Positions 31,644 to 39,806 of a stretch of 64,000 nucleotides of DNA are shown here, in pieces. The notes below the pieces were generated by a model. It ran no database searches. It saw only the letters and a list, made by a program, of their open reading frames with translations, and had not been told where the DNA came from. How positions within the stretch are numbered: the stretch's first letter is position 1; every line of letters begins with the position of its first letter. Both the position numbers and the translations under genes were made by a program. Source of the DNA: Proteus mirabilis ATCC 29906 (GTDB lineage: Bacteria > Pseudomonadota > Gammaproteobacteria > Enterobacterales > Enterobacteriaceae); NCBI RefSeq assembly GCF_000160755.1, contig NZ_GG668577.1, forward strand, positions 62,001 through 126,000. Direction: 5' to 3'.

Positions 31644-32489
31644 TTATTCGCATTCACAAGGTAATGCGTTTTCTGCTCCCCACTGCGCCCAAGAGCCATC
31701 ATACAGTGCGATATTTTGGCAGCCCAATAGAGTTAAAGCCAAAAATAGAATAGCTGCTGTCATACCTGAGCCACAACTGACAATAATTGGTTGAGATAAA
31801 TCGACACCTGCTTGTTCAAAAATGTGCTGTAATTGCGCTTTATCTTTTAATTGTCCATTAATGACTAAGCTATCCCAAGGAACATTTTTACTATTGGGAA
31901 TATGGCCCCTACGTAAACCGGGACGAGGCTCTGGTGCTCTACCATAAAATCTATCCGCCGAACGAGCATCAATGATTTGATTTTGTTGCGTAGTCAGATT
32001 ATCCAGTATTTGTTGTTTATCGACACGGCGTTGAGTGTTGCGTGTGACGATAAAAGGGTGAGTGGTTGGGACGTTGGGCGTTTTTCCTTTCTCAAGGGGG
32101 AACCCCGCTTCCTGCCAAGCTTGTAAACCACCGGCCAGAATACGCACCTTGTGACAACCTAAGGTAGTAAAAGTCCACCAGCCACGAGGTGCTGAAAAGA
32201 GATTACCGATATCATAGAGGATCACTGTTGTATTATTTGAAATACCTAACTGAGTTAAGGTTTCAGAAAACAGTGTGTCAGATGGCAACATATGTGGTAA
32301 TGATGTTGTTTTATCGGCGATTTCATCCAGATCAAAAAAATGGGCACCAGGGATATGACGTTCAAGATAGCGCTGATGATAGTCAATATCTTGCGTAGGC
32401 ATAGGCGCGCTAACATCAACTATCACCAGATCTTGATCGTCGTGATGTTCAAAAAGCCATTGTGGGGTAACAAAATAATCAAATTCCAT
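31644..32489 (-). CDS. sseA: SseA, 3-mercaptopyruvate sulfurtransferase
   Basis: Transfers sulfur from 3-mercaptopyruvate to thiophilic acceptors. 281 residues, the E. coli length. Two rhodanese domains: an inactive N-terminal one (~1-145) and a catalytic C-terminal one (~160-280), whose active loop is CGSGMTA (Met where E. coli has Val). AGAGG precedes the ATG (MEFDYFVTPQWL). It follows a small membrane-protein gene by 12 bases, probably one transcript. Confidence 0.95.
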   Translation of the reverse strand: MEFDYFVTPQWLFEHHDDQDLVIVDVSAPMPTQDIDYHQRYLERHIPGAHFFDLDEIADKTTSLPHMLPSDTLFSETLTQLGISNNTTVILYDIGNLFSAPRGWWTFTTLGCHKVRILAGGLQAWQEAGFPLEKGKTPNVPTTHPFIVTRNTQRRVDKQQILDNLTTQQNQIIDARSADRFYGRAPEPRPGLRRGHIPNSKNVPWDSLVINGQLKDKAQLQHIFEQAGVDLSQPIIVSCGSGMTAAILFLALTLLGCQNIALYDGSWAQWGAENALPCECE

Positions 32490-32879: not shown

Positions 32880-32922
32880 ATAACAAAAAGCCCTTAAACT
32901 CAGGAGTCACCGAGTTTAAGGG
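32880..32922 (-). terminator. Terminator downstream of the dicarboxylate transporter
   Basis: Perfect 11-base stem CCCTTAAACTC / GAGTTTAAGGG (32891-32901, 32912-32922), 10-base loop; on the minus strand it is followed by CTTTTTG. Confidence 0.88.
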
Positions 32923-32972: not shown

Positions 32973-34340
32973 TTATGTGTATAAAAACCAGAATGTCATC
33001 GCTAAGTTAACGGTAGCGGCGACAGCCATTGGAATTGCGGTTCTTTTCACTATTTGGAAAGGTGAGACATTGGCAATTCCTGCAATAGCAACAATAGCTG
33101 CCGTAATAGGTGAAACTGTGCGACCAAAGCTGGTCATAATTTGCATAGGTAAAATTAAAGTGATGACATCGACTTTTAAGAATGCAGCAATTTTGGGTGT
33201 TAATGCGGCAAATGAAAAGAATGCAGCATTACCCGATCCCATTAAAAAGGCTGCTAATGCTAAGATGGCACTCATCACAATAATCATAGCAGCAATACCA
33301 AAGCCAGCATCTTGAGCAGAACTAATTAAGGTATCTACCGCGCCACTTTTTAGTAATCCATTAGCAAAAAATTCCCCAGATACAATCAACGATACAACTA
33401 AAACAAACTGTTTTCCCATGCCTTCAAAGAACAACATAAAACTGTTCATTACCGCTTTAGCATCGCGCAATCGCACATATTCAAAGACTAGTGCAATAAC
33501 CGTACTAATAATCATTGCGGTAGTCACTTCTAATTTAATGTAATTATGAAATAACGGACTAAAACCAATAATGAGAATTAAAGGGATCACGGGTAATAAG
33601 GCATATGATAATGGCACCTGACTTCCTTCTTCTTTTACATTATCAATGGCTGTTGGGTCGAAAACAAAACCCTCACGTTTATCCCACCAACGTTGAATAA
33701 AGAAATGGGTAATAGCAACCGCAATGATAATAGGAATAGTGATAGGCAGTTGGTGTTGAACAAAATAGACTGCAGGTTCAATATCCGCTGTTTTAGCCGC
33801 CATAATAACATTTCCAGAGCCGGGTCCATGATCAATAAATTGACAACAACCGATAACAGCTAAAGCAGATAGAGGACTAATACCTGAGCGAATTAAAATA
33901 GGGTACATCGTTACCATGAGTAACATTCCTAAACCTGCATGGCTAGGAATAAAAATAACTAAAATTTGTGTGACTAAAAATGAAATAACTAGTAATAAGT
34001 AGGGGGATTTAATCGTTTTTAATGGTTTTTCAAAAATAGCAAATAAAGCTCGGCTGGCGCCCACGTGTTCCATATAACGTGAGAAACCAGCAATTGCCAT
34101 TAAGGTTAAACCTAAACCCGCTAAACGCGAGCTCATAATATCGGTAAAAATTTGGAAAATATCAAAATACTTAAATTGTGTAGATTTATTTTCCGGTAAT
34201 AAAGGGTTGAGATCGAGAGAAGCTGTAAGGAGCAATAACAGCATGCCTCCGAGTAATAACACAGGTTGAGGTTTATAACCTCGAGCCAGCAAATAAACTA
34301 CCAACGCAGTAACTAGCGCGGCAATAATTAAACCAGTCAT
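32973..34340 (-). CDS. DcuC/DcuD-family C4-dicarboxylate transporter
   Basis: 455 residues, the length of E. coli DcuD, with about 12 hydrophobic segments spread evenly. Family-type motifs include FIPSHAGLGMLLMV, CCQFIDHGPGSGN and LMGSGNAAFFSF in the two halves. The DcuC family exchanges or exports C4-dicarboxylates (succinate/fumarate) in anaerobes; the true substrate here is unknown. GGGGAA lies before the ATG. It follows the PLP lyase gene by 35 bases, and is divergent from a fumarase-superfamily lyase, so fumarate, succinate or the lyase substrate are candidate cargo. Confidence 0.85.
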   Translation of the reverse strand: MTGLIIAALVTALVVYLLARGYKPQPVLLLGGMLLLLLTASLDLNPLLPENKSTQFKYFDIFQIFTDIMSSRLAGLGLTLMAIAGFSRYMEHVGASRALFAIFEKPLKTIKSPYLLLVISFLVTQILVIFIPSHAGLGMLLMVTMYPILIRSGISPLSALAVIGCCQFIDHGPGSGNVIMAAKTADIEPAVYFVQHQLPITIPIIIAVAITHFFIQRWWDKREGFVFDPTAIDNVKEEGSQVPLSYALLPVIPLILIIGFSPLFHNYIKLEVTTAMIISTVIALVFEYVRLRDAKAVMNSFMLFFEGMGKQFVLVVSLIVSGEFFANGLLKSGAVDTLISSAQDAGFGIAAMIIVMSAILALAAFLMGSGNAAFFSFAALTPKIAAFLKVDVITLILPMQIMTSFGRTVSPITAAIVAIAGIANVSPFQIVKRTAIPMAVAATVNLAMTFWFLYT

Positions 34341-34375
34341 AATTAATTCCCCAGTGTCGTGATGCAGTATTGTTG

Positions 34376-35551
34376 TTATTGATTTAATGCACTAAATGCT
34401 TGGGTGAGATCTGCAATTAAGTCATCAGTAGACTCAAGACCAATATGTAAACGTACAAAAGGACCGTGGCCTTCACGCCAATCTGTTGCTGTTCTGGCAC
34501 CCATAACATTGGCGGGTAATGCAAGACTTTCAAATCCTCCCCAAGATGCACCAATACCAAATAAGGTTAATGCATCAATAAATTGTTCAGATTGTTTAAT
34601 GGTATATTTTTGTTTAAATTCAATGGTTAATAATCCATTACTACCTTTACAATCACGTTTCCATAAGTCATGGCGAGGATGTGTGGGTAACTCTGGAAAC
34701 CAAACTTTGGCCACTTCAGGGCGTGTTTCTAACCACTGAGCGATAGCCAGTGCTGATTTACCATGATTTGTAAGACGTTGAGCAAGAGTCCTCATTCCTC
34801 TCAGGACTAAGGCGGCATCATCAGGGCTACTTGCTTGACCAAGAGCTTCTGGTAATGCCCCAATTTGTTTCCATGCGGTTTCATTTGCGATCATAATGCC
34901 CATCATGACATCTGAGTGACCGCATAAATATTTAGTTGCAGCAATTACAGAAACATCAGCACCTAATTCCAAAGGGTTATAAAGCCATGCCGAGCCCCAA
35001 GTATTATCCACCCCAACAGGAATATTTTTTTCATGAGCGATATGGCAAATTTCTGGTAGATCCAGCATTTCATAAAGTAATGAACCCGGTGATTCAACGA
35101 AAATAAGTTGAGTGTTTTCTTGAATTTTTTGCTCGAAATCTGAACCGTCAGTTTTAAAAAAGCTATAAGTGATATTATTAGGCTCTAAAAAAGCAGAGGC
35201 TATTTTACGTACGGGTTCATAGACAGAATCAGCAAATAAAACATGCCCACCACTTCGGGCGTAGCCCATAATAGTAAATGCAATTGCGGCTAGCCCTGTA
35301 GGAAAGAGCTGTGCTCGATAACCACCTTCTAATTCAGTTACTAATGCTTCAAGTGCAAACGCTGTTTCTGTACCACGAGCACCATAGCTTAATACTCGTT
35401 CAGTAATACGACGATCGCGTATTTCACGCCAACTTTTTATTGAATCAAAAACAATAGTACTGGCTCTCATAACAGGAGGGTTAATTGGGCCAGATGTTTT
35501 AATTGCTTGACGCCCACTATGTATCAATGTTGTTTGTTTATTCTGTTTCAT
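34376..35551 (-). CDS. Cystathionine beta-lyase-type PLP enzyme (MetC family)
   Basis: 391 residues, Cys/Met-metabolism PLP family. Schiff-base lysine K207 in SVIAATKYLCGHSD, PLP-binding VDNTWGSAW, SYGARGTET near residue 55 and FPTGLAAI. The family cleaves C-S bonds (cystathionine to homocysteine, pyruvate and ammonia) and some members act on cysteine or other S-substituted cysteines. Being in a catabolic neighbourhood rather than next to met genes, and followed by a dicarboxylate carrier, it may be a dedicated desulfhydrase-like paralogue. GGAG precedes the ATG. Confidence 0.87.
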   Translation of the reverse strand: MKQNKQTTLIHSGRQAIKTSGPINPPVMRASTIVFDSIKSWREIRDRRITERVLSYGARGTETAFALEALVTELEGGYRAQLFPTGLAAIAFTIMGYARSGGHVLFADSVYEPVRKIASAFLEPNNITYSFFKTDGSDFEQKIQENTQLIFVESPGSLLYEMLDLPEICHIAHEKNIPVGVDNTWGSAWLYNPLELGADVSVIAATKYLCGHSDVMMGIMIANETAWKQIGALPEALGQASSPDDAALVLRGMRTLAQRLTNHGKSALAIAQWLETRPEVAKVWFPELPTHPRHDLWKRDCKGSNGLLTIEFKQKYTIKQSEQFIDALTLFGIGASWGGFESLALPANVMGARTATDWREGHGPFVRLHIGLESTDDLIADLTQAFSALNQ

Positions 35552-35959
35552 TATTTATATCTCCGAATATAGAAAATAAGATCTCCCAGTAATTAATTTA
35601 GAATTTAATTACTATTTTGAGCTGGAAATTTGTAGTTGCTATTATTTATAACAAAGATATTTATTTTTAAAATATCTATTTTTAAAAAATGATGATCTTG
35701 CTCTAATTTTTTATCATTAATTATTCTAATTAAATCTTAAAGATTGTTTAAGATTTAAAAGGTATAAATAATAAATTAATTTTATTTTGCAACTTATTGA
35801 ATTTTAGTCAATTTTCAATTGATTAGAAATTCTTTAAATTAGATTAAAATTATCAAAGTGTTTTTATTAAAATTCTATTGCATAAATAAAGTAACAAGCT
35901 AACAACTCGTTTTATTTTAAAAACGATTTTTTATTATTCTTTTAACAGGGGAAATAATT
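35552..35959. promoter_or_regulatory. Divergent promoter region of the 33-39 kb catabolic cluster
   Basis: 408 very A/T-rich bases between the divergent PLP lyase and fumarase-superfamily lyase genes, without a gene. An inverted repeat TCAATT-N3-AATTGA (35808-35822) could be a LysR-type or other operator. No convincing -35/-10 pair could be fixed by eye because the whole stretch is A/T-rich. Confidence 0.5.
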
Positions 35960-37327
35960 ATGGGAACTAGTGTGTTTGATTCTGTTTTATTAAAAAACTT
36001 ATGGTCAACAGAAGAAATGAGAACTATTTTTTCTGACAAAACTAGAATGCAAAATTGGCTTGATTATGAAGCAGCATTAGCAATAGAACAAGCTGAGCTT
36101 GGTTTAATTCCTCAAAAGGCGGCTGAGGTTATTGTACAGAGTGCAAAACTTGAAAAATTAGATATGGATTATGTATTAGAACAAGTTCGTCTTACTCGAC
36201 ATCCATTAGTACCTACTATTCGAGGCTTAGAATATGCTTGTTCTGAACATTATGGAGAATATGTTCATTTTGGGCCGACAACACAAGATGTTATTGATAC
36301 AGGCTTAGTGCTACAACTTAAAGCTGCTCATCAAACTTTTTTACGTGATATTAAAATATTAGGTCGTTCATTACTTTCTTTAAGTGAAAAACACCGCAAT
36401 ACACCTATGGTTGGACGCACTTTAGCGTTACAAGCGTTACCAATCACATTTGGGCATAAAACAGCAATTTGGTTGACAGAGTTAGCGCGTCATTATCAAC
36501 GACTTAAAGAGGTGGAACCTCGTCTATTTGTTGGCAGTGTAGTCGGTGCTGTCGGGACTAAAGCTTCTTTAAGCGATAAAGCTGATGAATTAGAAAAACG
36601 CGTATTAAAACGCTTAGGATTAGGTATACCGGAAATCTCATGGCAACCAGCACGTGATAGATTTAGTGAATATGGTATGTTAATTGGATTAATTAGTGGA
36701 ACGTTAGGGAAAATAGCTAACGAGATCTTAATATTAGCACACAATGAAATTGATGAGCTTTCAGAGCCTTTTGGTAAAGGGCAAGTTGGCTCTTCAACTA
36801 TGCCACATAAACGCAATCCAGCTATTGTTGAAAATGCCGCCTGTGTAAGTAATACCTTAAAAGCTAATCTTTCTGTATTAACGGATATGATGAAACATCA
36901 ACATGAACGTGATGGTGCTATCTGGAAGATGGAGTGGAAGATTATGCCAGAAATGTGTCTGATGTTATCTGTTATCTTGGATAATATGAAAACAGTACTA
37001 GGTGGGCTAAATGTTCATGTTGAAAAAATGCGTAACAACATGGATATCTTAGGTGGGTTTATGTTAGCAGAACGTGTGATGTTTGCTCTGTCCGATAAAG
37101 CAGGCAAACAAACTGCTCACGAAATTGTGTATGAAGCGTCAATGTCTGGACAAGAAGAGGGGATTACTTTCGTAGAAGCTATTAATCGTGATACTCGTAT
37201 TCGTGACCATATTTCACAAGAAGAGTTAAATGCTTTGCTAGATCCAACTACCTATGTTGGTAATGCTCCTGAGCAAGTTGATCGTGTAGTCGCTCAAACA
37301 AAAGCTTCCGGCTGGTTAAATGATTAA
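35960..37327 (+). CDS. Fumarase/aspartase-superfamily lyase (adenylosuccinate lyase / carboxymuconate cycloisomerase-like)
   Basis: 455 residues, mostly helical. The superfamily signature GSSTMPHKRNP lies at about 277-287 with the catalytic serine in the flexible loop; HFGPTTQDVIDT (~106-117) and GRTLALQALPITFGHK (~150-165) are the other two conserved blocks. Members release fumarate (or cyclise muconate) from succinyl-type substrates. It is probably not purB: it sits with a MmgE/PrpD protein, a C4-dicarboxylate carrier and a C-S lyase. Iminodisuccinate or ethylenediaminedisuccinate lyase and S-(2-succino)cysteine lyase are precedents in this superfamily. GGGGAA precedes the ATG. Substrate unknown. 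Confidence 0.88.
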   Translation: MGTSVFDSVLLKNLWSTEEMRTIFSDKTRMQNWLDYEAALAIEQAELGLIPQKAAEVIVQSAKLEKLDMDYVLEQVRLTRHPLVPTIRGLEYACSEHYGEYVHFGPTTQDVIDTGLVLQLKAAHQTFLRDIKILGRSLLSLSEKHRNTPMVGRTLALQALPITFGHKTAIWLTELARHYQRLKEVEPRLFVGSVVGAVGTKASLSDKADELEKRVLKRLGLGIPEISWQPARDRFSEYGMLIGLISGTLGKIANEILILAHNEIDELSEPFGKGQVGSSTMPHKRNPAIVENAACVSNTLKANLSVLTDMMKHQHERDGAIWKMEWKIMPEMCLMLSVILDNMKTVLGGLNVHVEKMRNNMDILGGFMLAERVMFALSDKAGKQTAHEIVYEASMSGQEEGITFVEAINRDTRIRDHISQEELNALLDPTTYVGNAPEQVDRVVAQTKASGWLND

Positions 37328-37349
37328 TTGATGGAATGAAATCTCATAA

Positions 37350-37375
37350 AAAGCCAGTGATAACTGGCTTTGTTA
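37350..37375 (+). terminator. Hairpin between the lyase and MmgE/PrpD genes
   Basis: Perfect 9-base stem AAAGCCAGT-GATA-ACTGGCTTT (37350-37371) followed by GTTATTATC. It may partly terminate and lower mmgE/prpD-type gene expression relative to the lyase. Confidence 0.75.
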
Positions 37376-37397
37376 TTATCAGCATTGAGGTATTTAT

Positions 37398-38777
37398 ATG
37401 ACATTGAGTCAGCATGTAGCTAATTTTATTACTACAACGACATTTTCACAGCTTCCAACGCAACTGATAGCTCGAGCCAAATTACATTTATTAGATACAT
37501 TAGGTGTAGCACTTGCAGGGAGTACACAATCTAGCTCGAAACAAGGACGTCATGGGATTACTCTTTTACCCGATAGCCAAGGTAAGATCCCCATTTGGGG
37601 AAGTATGCAGACAGCTAATACCACTGCAGCAGCCTTAGCCAATGGTATTGCTGCACATGCATTAGATTTCGATGATACACATACTGATTCTATTACTCAC
37701 GGTAGTGCTGTATTAACACCGATAGCTTTTGCGTTAGGGGAAACATTAAACGCCTCAAATAAAGAAATATTAACGGCTTGGGTTATTGGTTGGGAAGTTG
37801 CTGCACGGGTTGGTTTAGCGAGTCACAGTGGTTTCCATCAACGTGGATTTCATGCAACGGCGATTGCTGGGATCTTCGGTGCAACAGCATGTGCGGCTTC
37901 ATTATTAAAACTTACGTCACAGCAGGCGGTAAATGCGTTAGGACTAACGGCAAGTCAAGCAGCGGGTATCGCTGAATATCTGACTAATAGCTCATCGGCA
38001 AAATGTTTTCATGCCGGATGGGCCGCTCAATCCGGTATTATTGCAGCCTCGTTAGCTAAAGGGGGAATGACTGGGCCTGAGACAATATTTGAAGGGCGAT
38101 ACAGTATTTATCATACTCATGGGATCAGCGAGCAAGCGATCCCTGAACAAGTTGCACAAGGATTAGGTGAACAATGGGAGTTTTTAAATGTTTCAATAAA
38201 ACCTTATCCGGTTTGCCATTTTGCTCATGCTACTGTTGATTGTGGACGTCGTTTACTTAAAAGAGGGATCAGTGCGGAAGAAATTGAACAAGTAGAATGT
38301 GTGATTGATCCAGTTGCTGCTGCATTAATTTGTGAGCCACTCGAAACAAAATGGGCGCCAAAAACAGCTTATGGGGCAAAATTTAGCTTACCTTGGTTAT
38401 TTGCTATTGGTTTTTTGGATAATGCGTTAACTTTATCATCGCTTTCAGCGGAAAACTTACAGCGTAACGATATCCAACTATTGGCGAAAAAAGTGAGCTA
38501 TCGTTATCCATCAGAAAATGAAATTCCCTTTCCGAGCTATTTTCCTGGATTAATCTTTGTTAGATTGAAAAATGGGCAACAATTAACTGAAAGGATCGAT
38601 ATTCAGTATGGTAACCCTGAAAATCCGATGGTTGATACGGATGTAATAGCGAAGTTTTATGATAATGCCAAGTGTGTAATGAAAAAGACACAAGCTGATC
38701 AACTGATTGAAAATATAATGAATTTTGAAAATATACCTATTTCATTACTTACACAATTATTACGGGTAGAGGCATAA
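37398..38777 (+). CDS. MmgE/PrpD-family protein
   Basis: 459 residues. N-terminal helical domain with LLDTLGVALAGS, HALDFDDTH (~95-103) and HSGFHQRGFHATA; the C-terminal alpha/beta domain starts near 270 (KPYPVCHFAHATVDC). The family includes 2-methylcitrate dehydratase, cis-aconitate decarboxylase and, notably, iminodisuccinate epimerase. The prpB/prpC methylcitrate genes are absent nearby, so a plain PrpD role is unlikely. Pairing with a fumarase-superfamily lyase suggests epimerisation or hydration of the lyase substrate (inference). GAGG lies 9 bases before the ATG. Confidence 0.86.
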   Translation: MTLSQHVANFITTTTFSQLPTQLIARAKLHLLDTLGVALAGSTQSSSKQGRHGITLLPDSQGKIPIWGSMQTANTTAAALANGIAAHALDFDDTHTDSITHGSAVLTPIAFALGETLNASNKEILTAWVIGWEVAARVGLASHSGFHQRGFHATAIAGIFGATACAASLLKLTSQQAVNALGLTASQAAGIAEYLTNSSSAKCFHAGWAAQSGIIAASLAKGGMTGPETIFEGRYSIYHTHGISEQAIPEQVAQGLGEQWEFLNVSIKPYPVCHFAHATVDCGRRLLKRGISAEEIEQVECVIDPVAAALICEPLETKWAPKTAYGAKFSLPWLFAIGFLDNALTLSSLSAENLQRNDIQLLAKKVSYRYPSENEIPFPSYFPGLIFVRLKNGQQLTERIDIQYGNPENPMVDTDVIAKFYDNAKCVMKKTQADQLIENIMNFENIPISLLTQLLRVEA

Positions 38778-38848
38778 CTCTTTTATCTGCATCCACAGGG
38801 ACAAGATAATGAATCTGATACCTTTTGTTTAAATGAGTTGCACCTGAT

Positions 38849-38886
38849 AAATGGCACTGACAATTTATTGTAGTGCCATTTTTGTT
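38849..38886. terminator. Terminator closing the lyase-MmgE/PrpD unit
   Basis: Perfect stem AAATGGCACT / AGTGCCATTT (38849-38858, 38872-38881), 13-base loop, then TTG-TTT; convergent with the LysR gene. Confidence 0.88.
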
Positions 38887-38897
38887 TCCTTAATGAG

Positions 38898-39806
38898 TTA
38901 GTGGTTTTGAAGGGTAATATCTGCGTGATTAATGACTTCATTCTGCTCATTTTTTAATGAATCAAATAGTATCTGAGCTGCTTTACTCGGGCTATTAGCA
39001 TTAAGATAAAGGTTATAACGAATAGCAGGTAATGGCGGTAATCCCTCTTTTTCACCCAAAATACGTAAATCATCACCAGAAAGCTCGATAGAGCGTGCCA
39101 TTATACCTAAACCAGCACGAACGGCCGCTCTGGCACCAGATAAGGTGGTGGCAATATAGGCAATGCGCCAGCGAATATTTTGTTGATCAAGGTGATTTAT
39201 CATCATATCACGGTAAGTACTTGGTTCATCAAGAACCACTAAAGGTAACGGTTCGTCAAGATCAAATCTAAAATGTTTACCGCAATACCATAACGAAGGC
39301 GATACGCGTAAGACAATTTTAGGGTAACCGACATGCTCTTCTGTAGAAATGGCTAAATCGACCTCATTATTTTCCAACATTGACATTAAAAAAGGGCTAC
39401 GTTTAACAATAATCTCCATAATTAAACGAGGATAAGCACCTGAAAAACGAGCAAGTAGATCGGGTAAGATTGTGTTTGCTGTATCATCGGGAGAGCCAAT
39501 CTTTAATATTCCATCAATTTCTTCATGCAATAAAGATAAACATGCTTCATCATTAATGCGCAAAATCCGCCGAGCATAATTAAGCAGTTGAGTGCCTGCT
39601 TCGGTTAATGTTTTATTTCTCCCTTGTCGAGCAAAAAGCTCTTTACCTATTAATGACTCAAGGCGTTGCATTTGTTGGCTGACTGCAGATTGTGTTCGGC
39701 AAACTGATTCAGCGGCTGCGGCAAAGGTGGAACCATCGGCAACAGCAACAAAAGTTCTGAGTAGGTCTAACTCTAAATTAAAAATAGGGCGCTTTGCAGA
39801 AGTCAT
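38898..39806 (-). CDS. LysR-family regulator of the LrhA/HexA group
   Basis: 302 residues. N-terminal helix-turn-helix: NLELDLLRTFVAVADGSTFAAAA then TQSAVSQQMQRLE, nearly identical to E. coli LrhA over this stretch (LrhA has NLDLDLLRTFVAVAD). The effector domain (~95-290) also resembles LrhA (PLVVLDEPSTYRDM, WRIAYIATTLSGARAAVRAGLG). Proteus has a separate hexA/lrhA elsewhere next to nuo as far as I recall, so this is probably a paralogue, possibly dedicated to the adjacent cluster, with which it is convergent rather than divergent. Confidence 0.85.
   Translation of the reverse strand: MTSAKRPIFNLELDLLRTFVAVADGSTFAAAAESVCRTQSAVSQQMQRLESLIGKELFARQGRNKTLTEAGTQLLNYARRILRINDEACLSLLHEEIDGILKIGSPDDTANTILPDLLARFSGAYPRLIMEIIVKRSPFLMSMLENNEVDLAISTEEHVGYPKIVLRVSPSLWYCGKHFRFDLDEPLPLVVLDEPSTYRDMMINHLDQQNIRWRIAYIATTLSGARAAVRAGLGIMARSIELSGDDLRILGEKEGLPPLPAIRYNLYLNANSPSKAAQILFDSLKNEQNEVINHADITLQNH

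Follow-up and report, generated by a model that had tools for sequence, protein, structure and literature searches.

Introduction

Succination is a mark of high-fumarate states, and the bacterial routes undoing it whose genes we met in this analysis are few, namely the scm/yxe route, which uses YxeK or an S-(2-succino) lyase (2SL), and mercaptosuccinate dioxygenase (Msdo), which acts on mercaptosuccinate. Here we describe a block of five genes at 32973-39806 of a 64,000-nt stretch of Proteus mirabilis ATCC 29906 (NZ_GG668577.1; the whole stretch is referred to as the window, and coordinates are positions within it unless another locus is named). The block encodes a DcuC-family carrier, a MetC-like lyase, a fumarase-superfamily lyase (LYA), an MmgE/PrpD-family protein (MPD) and a LysR regulator. 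With confidence slightly short of even, we read it from its sequence as an oxygen-independent catabolic module for succinated thiols, in which the MetC-like lyase would act first, on S-(2-succino)cysteine (2SC), followed by MPD, LYA and DcuC.

Several described systems resemble parts of the block. XcbD, a lyase of bacterial coenzyme M biosynthesis, acts on S-substituted cysteine, as its NCBIfam name indicates. The iminodisuccinate (IDS) epimerase of Agrobacterium belongs to the MmgE/PrpD family and is presumably paired with a C-N lyase, as the initial annotation of the window also assumed; it uses two bases, H99 and Y145 (PMC7347537). In two experimentally studied bacteria msdo is reported to cluster with a cystathionine beta-lyase gene, and the cluster also holds genes for a rhodanese, a LysR regulator and an amino-acid ABC transporter, whose deletion left growth on mercaptosuccinate at the wild-type level (PMC5373536). 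A natural substrate that is an amino-acid conjugate would agree with this result. The same article attributes to Visscher and Taylor (1993) a phototroph activity that converts mercaptosuccinate to fumarate and sulfide.

Organisation and conservation of the block

The initial annotation had grouped these five genes by family, and we found all five reading frames intact and open, with Pfam and NCBIfam confirming the assignments. The DcuC and MetC-like genes lie on the minus strand, LYA and MPD on the plus strand, and the LysR gene converges on MPD:

32973-34340, minus strand: DcuC-family C4-dicarboxylate carrier, 455 amino acids (PF03606, 295 bits)
34376-35551, minus strand: MetC-like pyridoxal 5'-phosphate (PLP) C-S beta-lyase, 391 amino acids, predicted 2SC beta-lyase (PF01053, TIGR01324)
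35552-35959, no strand: divergent promoter region, 408 bp, A+T-rich, between the two operons (from the gene coordinates)
35960-37327, plus strand: LYA, fumarase/aspartase-superfamily lyase, 455 amino acids, predicted mercaptosuccinate (or 2SC) lyase yielding fumarate (PF00206 and PF10397)
37398-38777, plus strand: MPD, MmgE/PrpD-family protein, 459 amino acids, predicted epimerase/racemase of the succinyl stereocentre (PF03972 and PF19305)
38898-39806, minus strand: LrhA-like LysR regulator, 302 amino acids (NF011673, 413 bits, under the cut-off of 530)

We found that the genes are conserved as a unit. Among 149 genomes of the GTDB family, sampled in a single draw, orthologs of LYA (74-77% identity), MPD (55-59%) and the MetC-like lyase (74-76%) occur in the same six genomes, the window's own included, and the block is contiguous with its order kept in all five others. 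The next-best homologs in this sample reach 43% for LYA and at most 35% for MPD, with none within the limit for the MetC-like lyase; G082, the sample's other member of the window's genus, gave no match to any of the three at the limits used. Scanning named genomes yielded 18 loci, nine of them in Proteus assemblies and the others in Providencia rettgeri, Budvicia, Leminorella, Limnobaculum, four Edwardsiella species and Citrobacter amalonaticus; in all 18 the DcuC, MetC-like, LYA and MPD genes are contiguous in identical order and orientation (DcuC being two split open reading frames in E. ictaluri). The LysR gene comes next after these core genes in 17 of the 18, with or without a DapA-family gene in front; in Leminorella (L062) it lies about 7.6 kb past MPD, beyond a stretch bearing a fimbrial usher gene. 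The grouping of the block genes is not due to chance, and the initial view of them as one module is supported.

Strict searches with LYA returned no ortholog outside the family, either at the class level (369 genomes; its own gene and G241 at about 42% only) or at the phylum level (398 genomes; its own gene and two members of the yxe 2SL clade), and two Proteus mirabilis records hold a LYA 100% identical to that of the window. The genes had been described as absent from the matching E. coli neighbourhood, and absence from E. coli holds for a megablast of the whole stretch against 20,395 E. coli records (no match, at a sensitivity of only about 85% identity or more) but not for one conjugative E. 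coli IncF plasmid, which carries a decayed and fragmented copy of the block (L101, NZ_CP069439.1, 6731-11788). The genes flanking the block in the window are present in the nine Proteus loci and were not found in the other nine; from these differing flanks and the decayed plasmid copy, the block appears to move as a unit. The plasmid remnant adjoins a group II intron and fimbrial genes.

The MetC-like lyase and its kin in Msdo loci

The MetC-like lyase scores 384.8 with TIGR01324, just above the cut-off of 365.9, and a canonical MetC homolog elsewhere in the same genome (G000:C52:415683) is 41% identical to it. In an alignment to E. coli cystathionine beta-lyase (CBL), Tyr111, the PLP-binding Lys210, Trp340 and Arg372 are kept, R58 is replaced by Ala in all block rows, Q115-D116 by Arg-Lys, and Y338 by Ala in the block rows. 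We take D116 to have a role in cystathionine binding in CBL. R58' is reported to contact the distal carboxylate of cystathionine (PMC5025676).

Among 60 plasmid matches listed, of which we inspected 12 regions (H43-H48, H50, H53, H56, H70, H71, H83), the nearest relatives outside the block are on Cupriavidus and Variovorax plasmids at 54-55% identity (L146-L150). Together with the block sequences these make 25 rows that have in common the motif YGARG, Arg115 and a small residue at 338 (Ala, or Ser in L147), and the MetC tree unites block and L146-L150 at 100/98, apart from the E. coli and Salmonella MetC. All five plasmid loci have Msdo in the cluster (within about 4 kb on the same strand, unless stated otherwise), and in all five the neighbours include LysR, cupin dioxygenase, rhodanese and TctC receptor genes; the Variovorax cupin dioxygenase is a full-length match to the mercaptosuccinate dioxygenase of PDB 8vni (5.7e-115). 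At 44-46% identity, Msdo is likewise in the cluster in 3/3 of the plasmid regions inspected (L151, L152, L157).

A separate draw of 398 phylum genomes gave the same picture. A MetC match was present in 105 of them, with context inspected at L187-L193 and at the own genome's canonical MetC, and outside the window the four best-matching places (47-55%; L187-L190) all have an Msdo homolog, which adjoins the MetC-type gene in two and is separated from it by rhodanese or by rhodanese and TctC in the other two. In contrast, Msdo is found at none of the next three places (44-46%; L191-L193), within 3 kb of none of four plasmid MetC genes at 41-42% (L153-L156), and not near the own canonical MetC. Overall, the seven loci with kin at 52-55% all lie in Msdo gene clusters, and the non-canonical residues are common to five of these seven, the five checked. 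Support for joining the two MetC groups from Msdo loci is only 84/74, from a bootstrap that had yet to converge. As mechanical gene calls are partly wrong in the high-GC loci (antisense in L102, L103 and L146-L150), genes there were placed by tblastn.

The Msdo clusters of Variovorax, Cupriavidus and Advenella therefore have a MetC-type lyase of the same clade with the same unusual residues as the block, and in L146-L150 and L187 a LysR gene 43-51% identical to that of the block. The block differs in having LYA, MPD and DcuC in place of Msdo, so that it should need no oxygen. Msdo gave no match in the 18 named block loci or in six of six block genomes searched, a search run without a positive-control genome, although the query does detect the homologs in L146-L152 and L157. 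The four-domain rhodanese of the Msdo loci also has no match in the block loci, and the rhodanese beside the Proteus loci is a different, two-domain protein.

The simplest reading of these neighbourhoods would be that the lyases of the Msdo clade produce mercaptosuccinate from the cysteine conjugate 2SC. The MetC-type lyase had initially been thought to process the thiol released by LYA; since its closest kin sit with Msdo, it more probably catalyses the first step and supplies LYA with mercaptosuccinate. If so, the cystathionine beta-lyase gene found alongside msdo may encode a 2SC beta-lyase.

The fumarase-superfamily lyase

LYA has the fold of the class I lyase family (PF00206 and PF10397) and the signature GSSTMPHKRNP, noted initially and located at residues 277-287. 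It passes the PurB model TIGR00928 (348 against a cut-off of 326), as do yxe-locus 2SL rows (380 and 370), and the model therefore cannot tell the two families apart. In PurB, the general acid is the His of the GRTHG motif. At this position, residue 155, LYA and its orthologs have Leu in 20/20 block rows, whereas His is found in 2SL (9/9 yxe rows, also L108 and L109), in XcbD, in a Variovorax lyase, in lyases of a dicarboxylate-symporter group and in the other rows, Trp in 7/7 PcaB rows, and Asn in the trans-aconitate decarboxylase TAD1. LYA also scores under the PcaB cut-offs (TIGR02426, 296.6 against 355.75; NF006554, 401.5 against 595).

In the LYA tree (57 rows, none of them PurB), the block lyases group with the Variovorax lyase at 99/92, then with the yxe-locus 2SLs at 83/33, and beyond these come the single lyase L100 (92/84) and XcbD (91/77), while PcaB, TAD1, 3c8t and the symporter group lie elsewhere. 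The L003 and L004 lyase pieces were left out of this tree; our trees dropped short LYA, MPD and MetC rows (L101, L106, L053 and L075 among them) and identical duplicates, and carry long-branch warnings. On family scores, residue 155 and the tree we rejected a PcaB role and a PurB role, the tree holding no PurB row; the PurB role had been argued against at the outset. The nearest characterised subfamilies, 2SL and XcbD, both handle cysteine thioethers, and the kinship of LYA to C-S lyases is suggestive only.

The Variovorax lyase, 49% identical to LYA, is on a plasmid (L102 5090-11359) near genes for an FAD oxidase, a Blh-like sulfur dioxygenase (344 bits, under the cut-off of 625, which is set for a two-domain protein) and an MmgE/PrpD protein, a neighbourhood that hints at a sulfur substrate.

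The MmgE/PrpD protein

MPD has both Pfam domains of its family, and the genome holds no other MmgE_PrpD_N match. Its scores lie far below the NCBIfam PrpD cut-offs (46 against 950 and 25 against 575), which rules out a role as 2-methylcitrate dehydratase PrpD, in agreement with the initial annotation. Orthology to YxeQ is rejected by the MPD tree, from which close Proteus MPD rows, L107 and L103 were left out. MPD evolves faster than its neighbours, being 79-81% identical between the window and the other Proteus loci as compared with 94-95% for LYA and 96-97% for DcuC.

Two side observations concern the family. The best PDB match of the MmgE/PrpD protein of one yxe locus (L070 4313-5656, minus strand) is 7bra, entered as "Bacillus subtilis IRG1" (225 bits), ahead of IDS epimerase (157) and cis-aconitate decarboxylase (86 bits); because a yxe-locus protein matches it best, this entry may itself be YxeQ or a near relative, and its labelling as a decarboxylase may be wrong. 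Furthermore, L136-L139 form a recurring cluster of DcuC (47-49%), MmgE/PrpD and a mandelate-racemase/enolase-superfamily gene (one example of each family checked by Pfam), with fumarase-type subunit genes near it in L136, L138 and L139, and with L137 stopping at the contig end.

Proposed route

We infer the substrates, products, stereochemistry and step order of the following route from the gene content. The MetC-like lyase would beta-eliminate 2SC to mercaptosuccinate (thiomalate), pyruvate and NH3, an effectively irreversible step. MPD would interconvert both enantiomers at the succinyl carbon, which would be needed because non-enzymatic succination is expected to yield both and superfamily lyases are stereospecific. 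LYA would then eliminate HS- from one mercaptosuccinate enantiomer to give fumarate and H2S, substituting for the O2-dependent Msdo of aerobic Betaproteobacteria; it is proposed for this step because a consumer of mercaptosuccinate is needed, Msdo was not found, and LYA is the sole fumarase-type lyase of the block. Leu155 in place of His might be tolerated if the leaving group is as small and as good as HS-. Fumarate would enter the tricarboxylic acid cycle or fumarate respiration, DcuC would exchange or export C4-dicarboxylates or take up mercaptosuccinate, and the LrhA-like LysR would control the divergent operons. The initial proposal of a module for a succinylated amine or thiol is supported as to the thiol class, and its reaction order probably needs to change.

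The further step of seeing here the missing genes of anaerobic mercaptosuccinate/2SC breakdown, namely a His-less thiomalate lyase, an MmgE/PrpD mercaptosuccinate racemase and a dedicated 2SC beta-lyase, is one we take only tentatively. In the open full-text literature we found no publication naming a mercaptosuccinate/thiomalate lyase, desulfhydrase or racemase. If true, a gene would be assigned to the activity of 1993, the block would be a further route to undo succination, with no oxygen or acetylation needed, in Proteus, Edwardsiella and other enterics, and these would convert a product of fumarate damage into an electron acceptor and sulfide.

Several points weigh against the proposed route. 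Thiol-fumarate adducts are favoured at equilibrium, with a reported Kc of 0.005-0.007 for N-acetyl-S-(2-succino)cysteine (2SNAC; PMC9706529), so that the LYA step would require strong product removal. The join of the LYA clade with 2SL is weak (83/33) and involves flagged long branches. MPD falls outside the groups of IDS epimerase and of YxeQ, and by alignment the base Tyr145 of IDS epimerase corresponds to His147 in MPD, with His99 kept. Residue 116 of the MetC-like lyase varies, being Asn in L091 and Thr in L090. The missing Msdo may reflect phylogeny alone, no FNR site backs anaerobic control in the divergent regions scanned, and the DapA-family gene of 9/18 loci has no part in the scheme. 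The H2S production of the host genera was not used as support, because C. amalonaticus and E. ictaluri, which are not known to produce it, do not fit.

Alternative readings

The order of reactions in the initial annotation is a live though unlikely alternative, to which we give about half the weight of the best reading. Here LYA would split 2SC directly into fumarate and L-cysteine without N-acetylation, MPD would epimerise 2SC, and the MetC-like lyase would desulfhydrate cysteine or cleave the diastereomer unusable by LYA. Its appeal lies in the yxe loci. Lyases 41-46% identical to LYA occur there, at 41-45% in eight sampled genomes (one truncated) and also on plasmid loci L104 and L105, ten loci with matches to YxeL, YxeN, YxeO and YxeP in 10/10, to YxeM in 8/10 and to a close YxeQ-type MmgE/PrpD in 3/10 (L069, L070, L075), the Yxe probes being taken from L070, itself one of the ten. 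These loci correspond to the 2SL-bearing yxe locus described by Hillmann et al. 2022 (PMC9706529), whose lyase is of the same branch of class I lyases as LYA, cleaves a C-S bond and yields fumarate; that some also have an MmgE/PrpD gene makes lyase and MmgE/PrpD a recurrent pair. In the same report 2SL is slightly active on unacetylated 2SC, and a downstream desulfhydrase could pull the unfavourable equilibrium.

Against this, that report defines a yxe locus by at least three of five components, and the block has only the MmgE/PrpD protein among them. Neither the window region nor any of the 18 named loci gave a match to the YxeL acetyltransferase, YxeM, YxeN or YxeP, and YxeO gave one generic ABC-ATPase match about 5 kb from the block (L094). 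The 2SL precedent invoked initially is genuine, but the acetyltransferase and the deacetylase of 2SL loci are missing from the block loci. Furthermore, LYA has Leu155 where all nine yxe 2SL rows have His, MPD is outside the YxeQ clade, and the block adds DcuC and a MetC-like lyase whose kin accompany Msdo, an enzyme with mercaptosuccinate rather than cysteine as its substrate.

More improbable is a synthetic direction akin to coenzyme M biosynthesis, with LYA joining a thiol to fumarate and the MetC-like lyase cutting the cysteine conjugate, so as to supply mercaptosuccinate as a metabolite or to detoxify cysteine or fumarate. In actinobacterial phosphosulfolactate synthase loci an XcbD-type lyase, at 38-40% identity to LYA, is indeed accompanied by a PLP enzyme, the pair centring on S-substituted cysteine much as in the block, and the 2SL equilibrium is reported to favour synthesis (PMC9706529). 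However, LYA scores 481 with the XcbD model NF052536, below the cut-off of 600, the PLP partner in XcbD loci is annotated as D-cysteine desulfhydrase family, and the five block genes include no phosphosulfolactate synthase. A downstream use of mercaptosuccinate is not apparent, and the MmgE/PrpD protein and C4-dicarboxylate carrier suit breakdown better.

Many lyases of the fumarase superfamily cleave C-N bonds, and LYA could by analogy release fumarate and an amine from an N-succinyl substrate (IDS, ethylenediaminedisuccinate, or N-succinyl diaminopropionate of the toxin A/aspergillomarasmine type), with MPD as the epimerase. We give this little credence. The nearest PDB profile relative of MPD is indeed IDS epimerase, but barely so (181.2 bits, as against 180.7 for cis-aconitate decarboxylase, IRG1), and His101, His152 and Lys202 of MPD fall on residues conserved in that enzyme; nevertheless, MPD is outside the IDS epimerase group, the Agrobacterium enzyme has Tyr145 and an amine substrate, and a MetC-type lyase of the Msdo clade is part of the block in all 18 named loci. 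The IDS precedent of the initial annotation is weakened accordingly by the MPD tree, while its pairing of a lyase with an MmgE/PrpD protein does recur.

Finally, a role of LYA on a tricarboxylate or other dicarboxylate such as trans-aconitate, with the MetC-like gene a passenger, is very improbable, for although the top PDB scores of LYA are to TAD1 and 3c8t (300 bits each), cis-aconitate decarboxylase belongs to the MmgE/PrpD family, and symporter-group lyases adjoin dicarboxylate transporters (in Roseomonas also a DapA-family gene), TAD1, 3c8t and the symporter group are on the opposite side of the LYA tree and have Tyr where LYA has His81, and a passenger would be unlikely to be retained in 18/18 loci.

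Transport, regulation and neighbouring genes

The DcuC gene is a predicted transporter with scores well above both cut-offs (NF037994, 466 against 100; TIGR00771, 360 against 187). Four genomes (L140-L143) combine a lyase 30-31% identical to LYA with DcuC (41-43%) and an rpiR-type regulator, and three of them, L140, L141 and L142, also have a malic enzyme gene (assigned by likeness in L141); that related lyases adjoin DcuC there fits a C4 product.

The LysR gene was rejected as proof of a link to Msdo, as LrhA-like genes outside Msdo loci are equal or closer to it (54-64% as compared with 43-51%), including a second such gene in the same genome (G000:C54:919701, 54%). Promoter sites in the region numbered 22 as against 27 expected, which is uninformative. 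FNR or CRP control of the block was rejected, the sites being no clear improvement on shuffles: in 19 divergent regions scanned the best site was equalled or beaten in at least 13% of shuffles, and mostly in more than half. Terminator-like hairpins occur at six sites in the region as against 5.6 expected in shuffles, which leaves the one between LYA and MPD weak:

32891-32922, minus strand: terminator-like hairpin 3' of DcuC, 13 pairs, 6 of them G-C, T-rich tail
37350-37371, plus strand: terminator-like hairpin between LYA and MPD, possible partial terminator, weak (hairpin scan)

A gene for a two-domain rhodanese, of the sulfurtransferase family, is encoded on the strand of DcuC and 483 bp past it (31644-32489, minus strand), and adjoins the block in the nine Proteus loci but not in the other nine. 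A DapA-family gene (3eb2 subfamily), absent from the window region, precedes LysR in 9/18 named loci, Leminorella included, and in Roseomonas a 51% identical one accompanies a different lyase. Positions of DapA-family genes from these two settings are:

L062 1586-2461, L066 16137-17018 and L113 8882-9772: DapA-family gene, three examples

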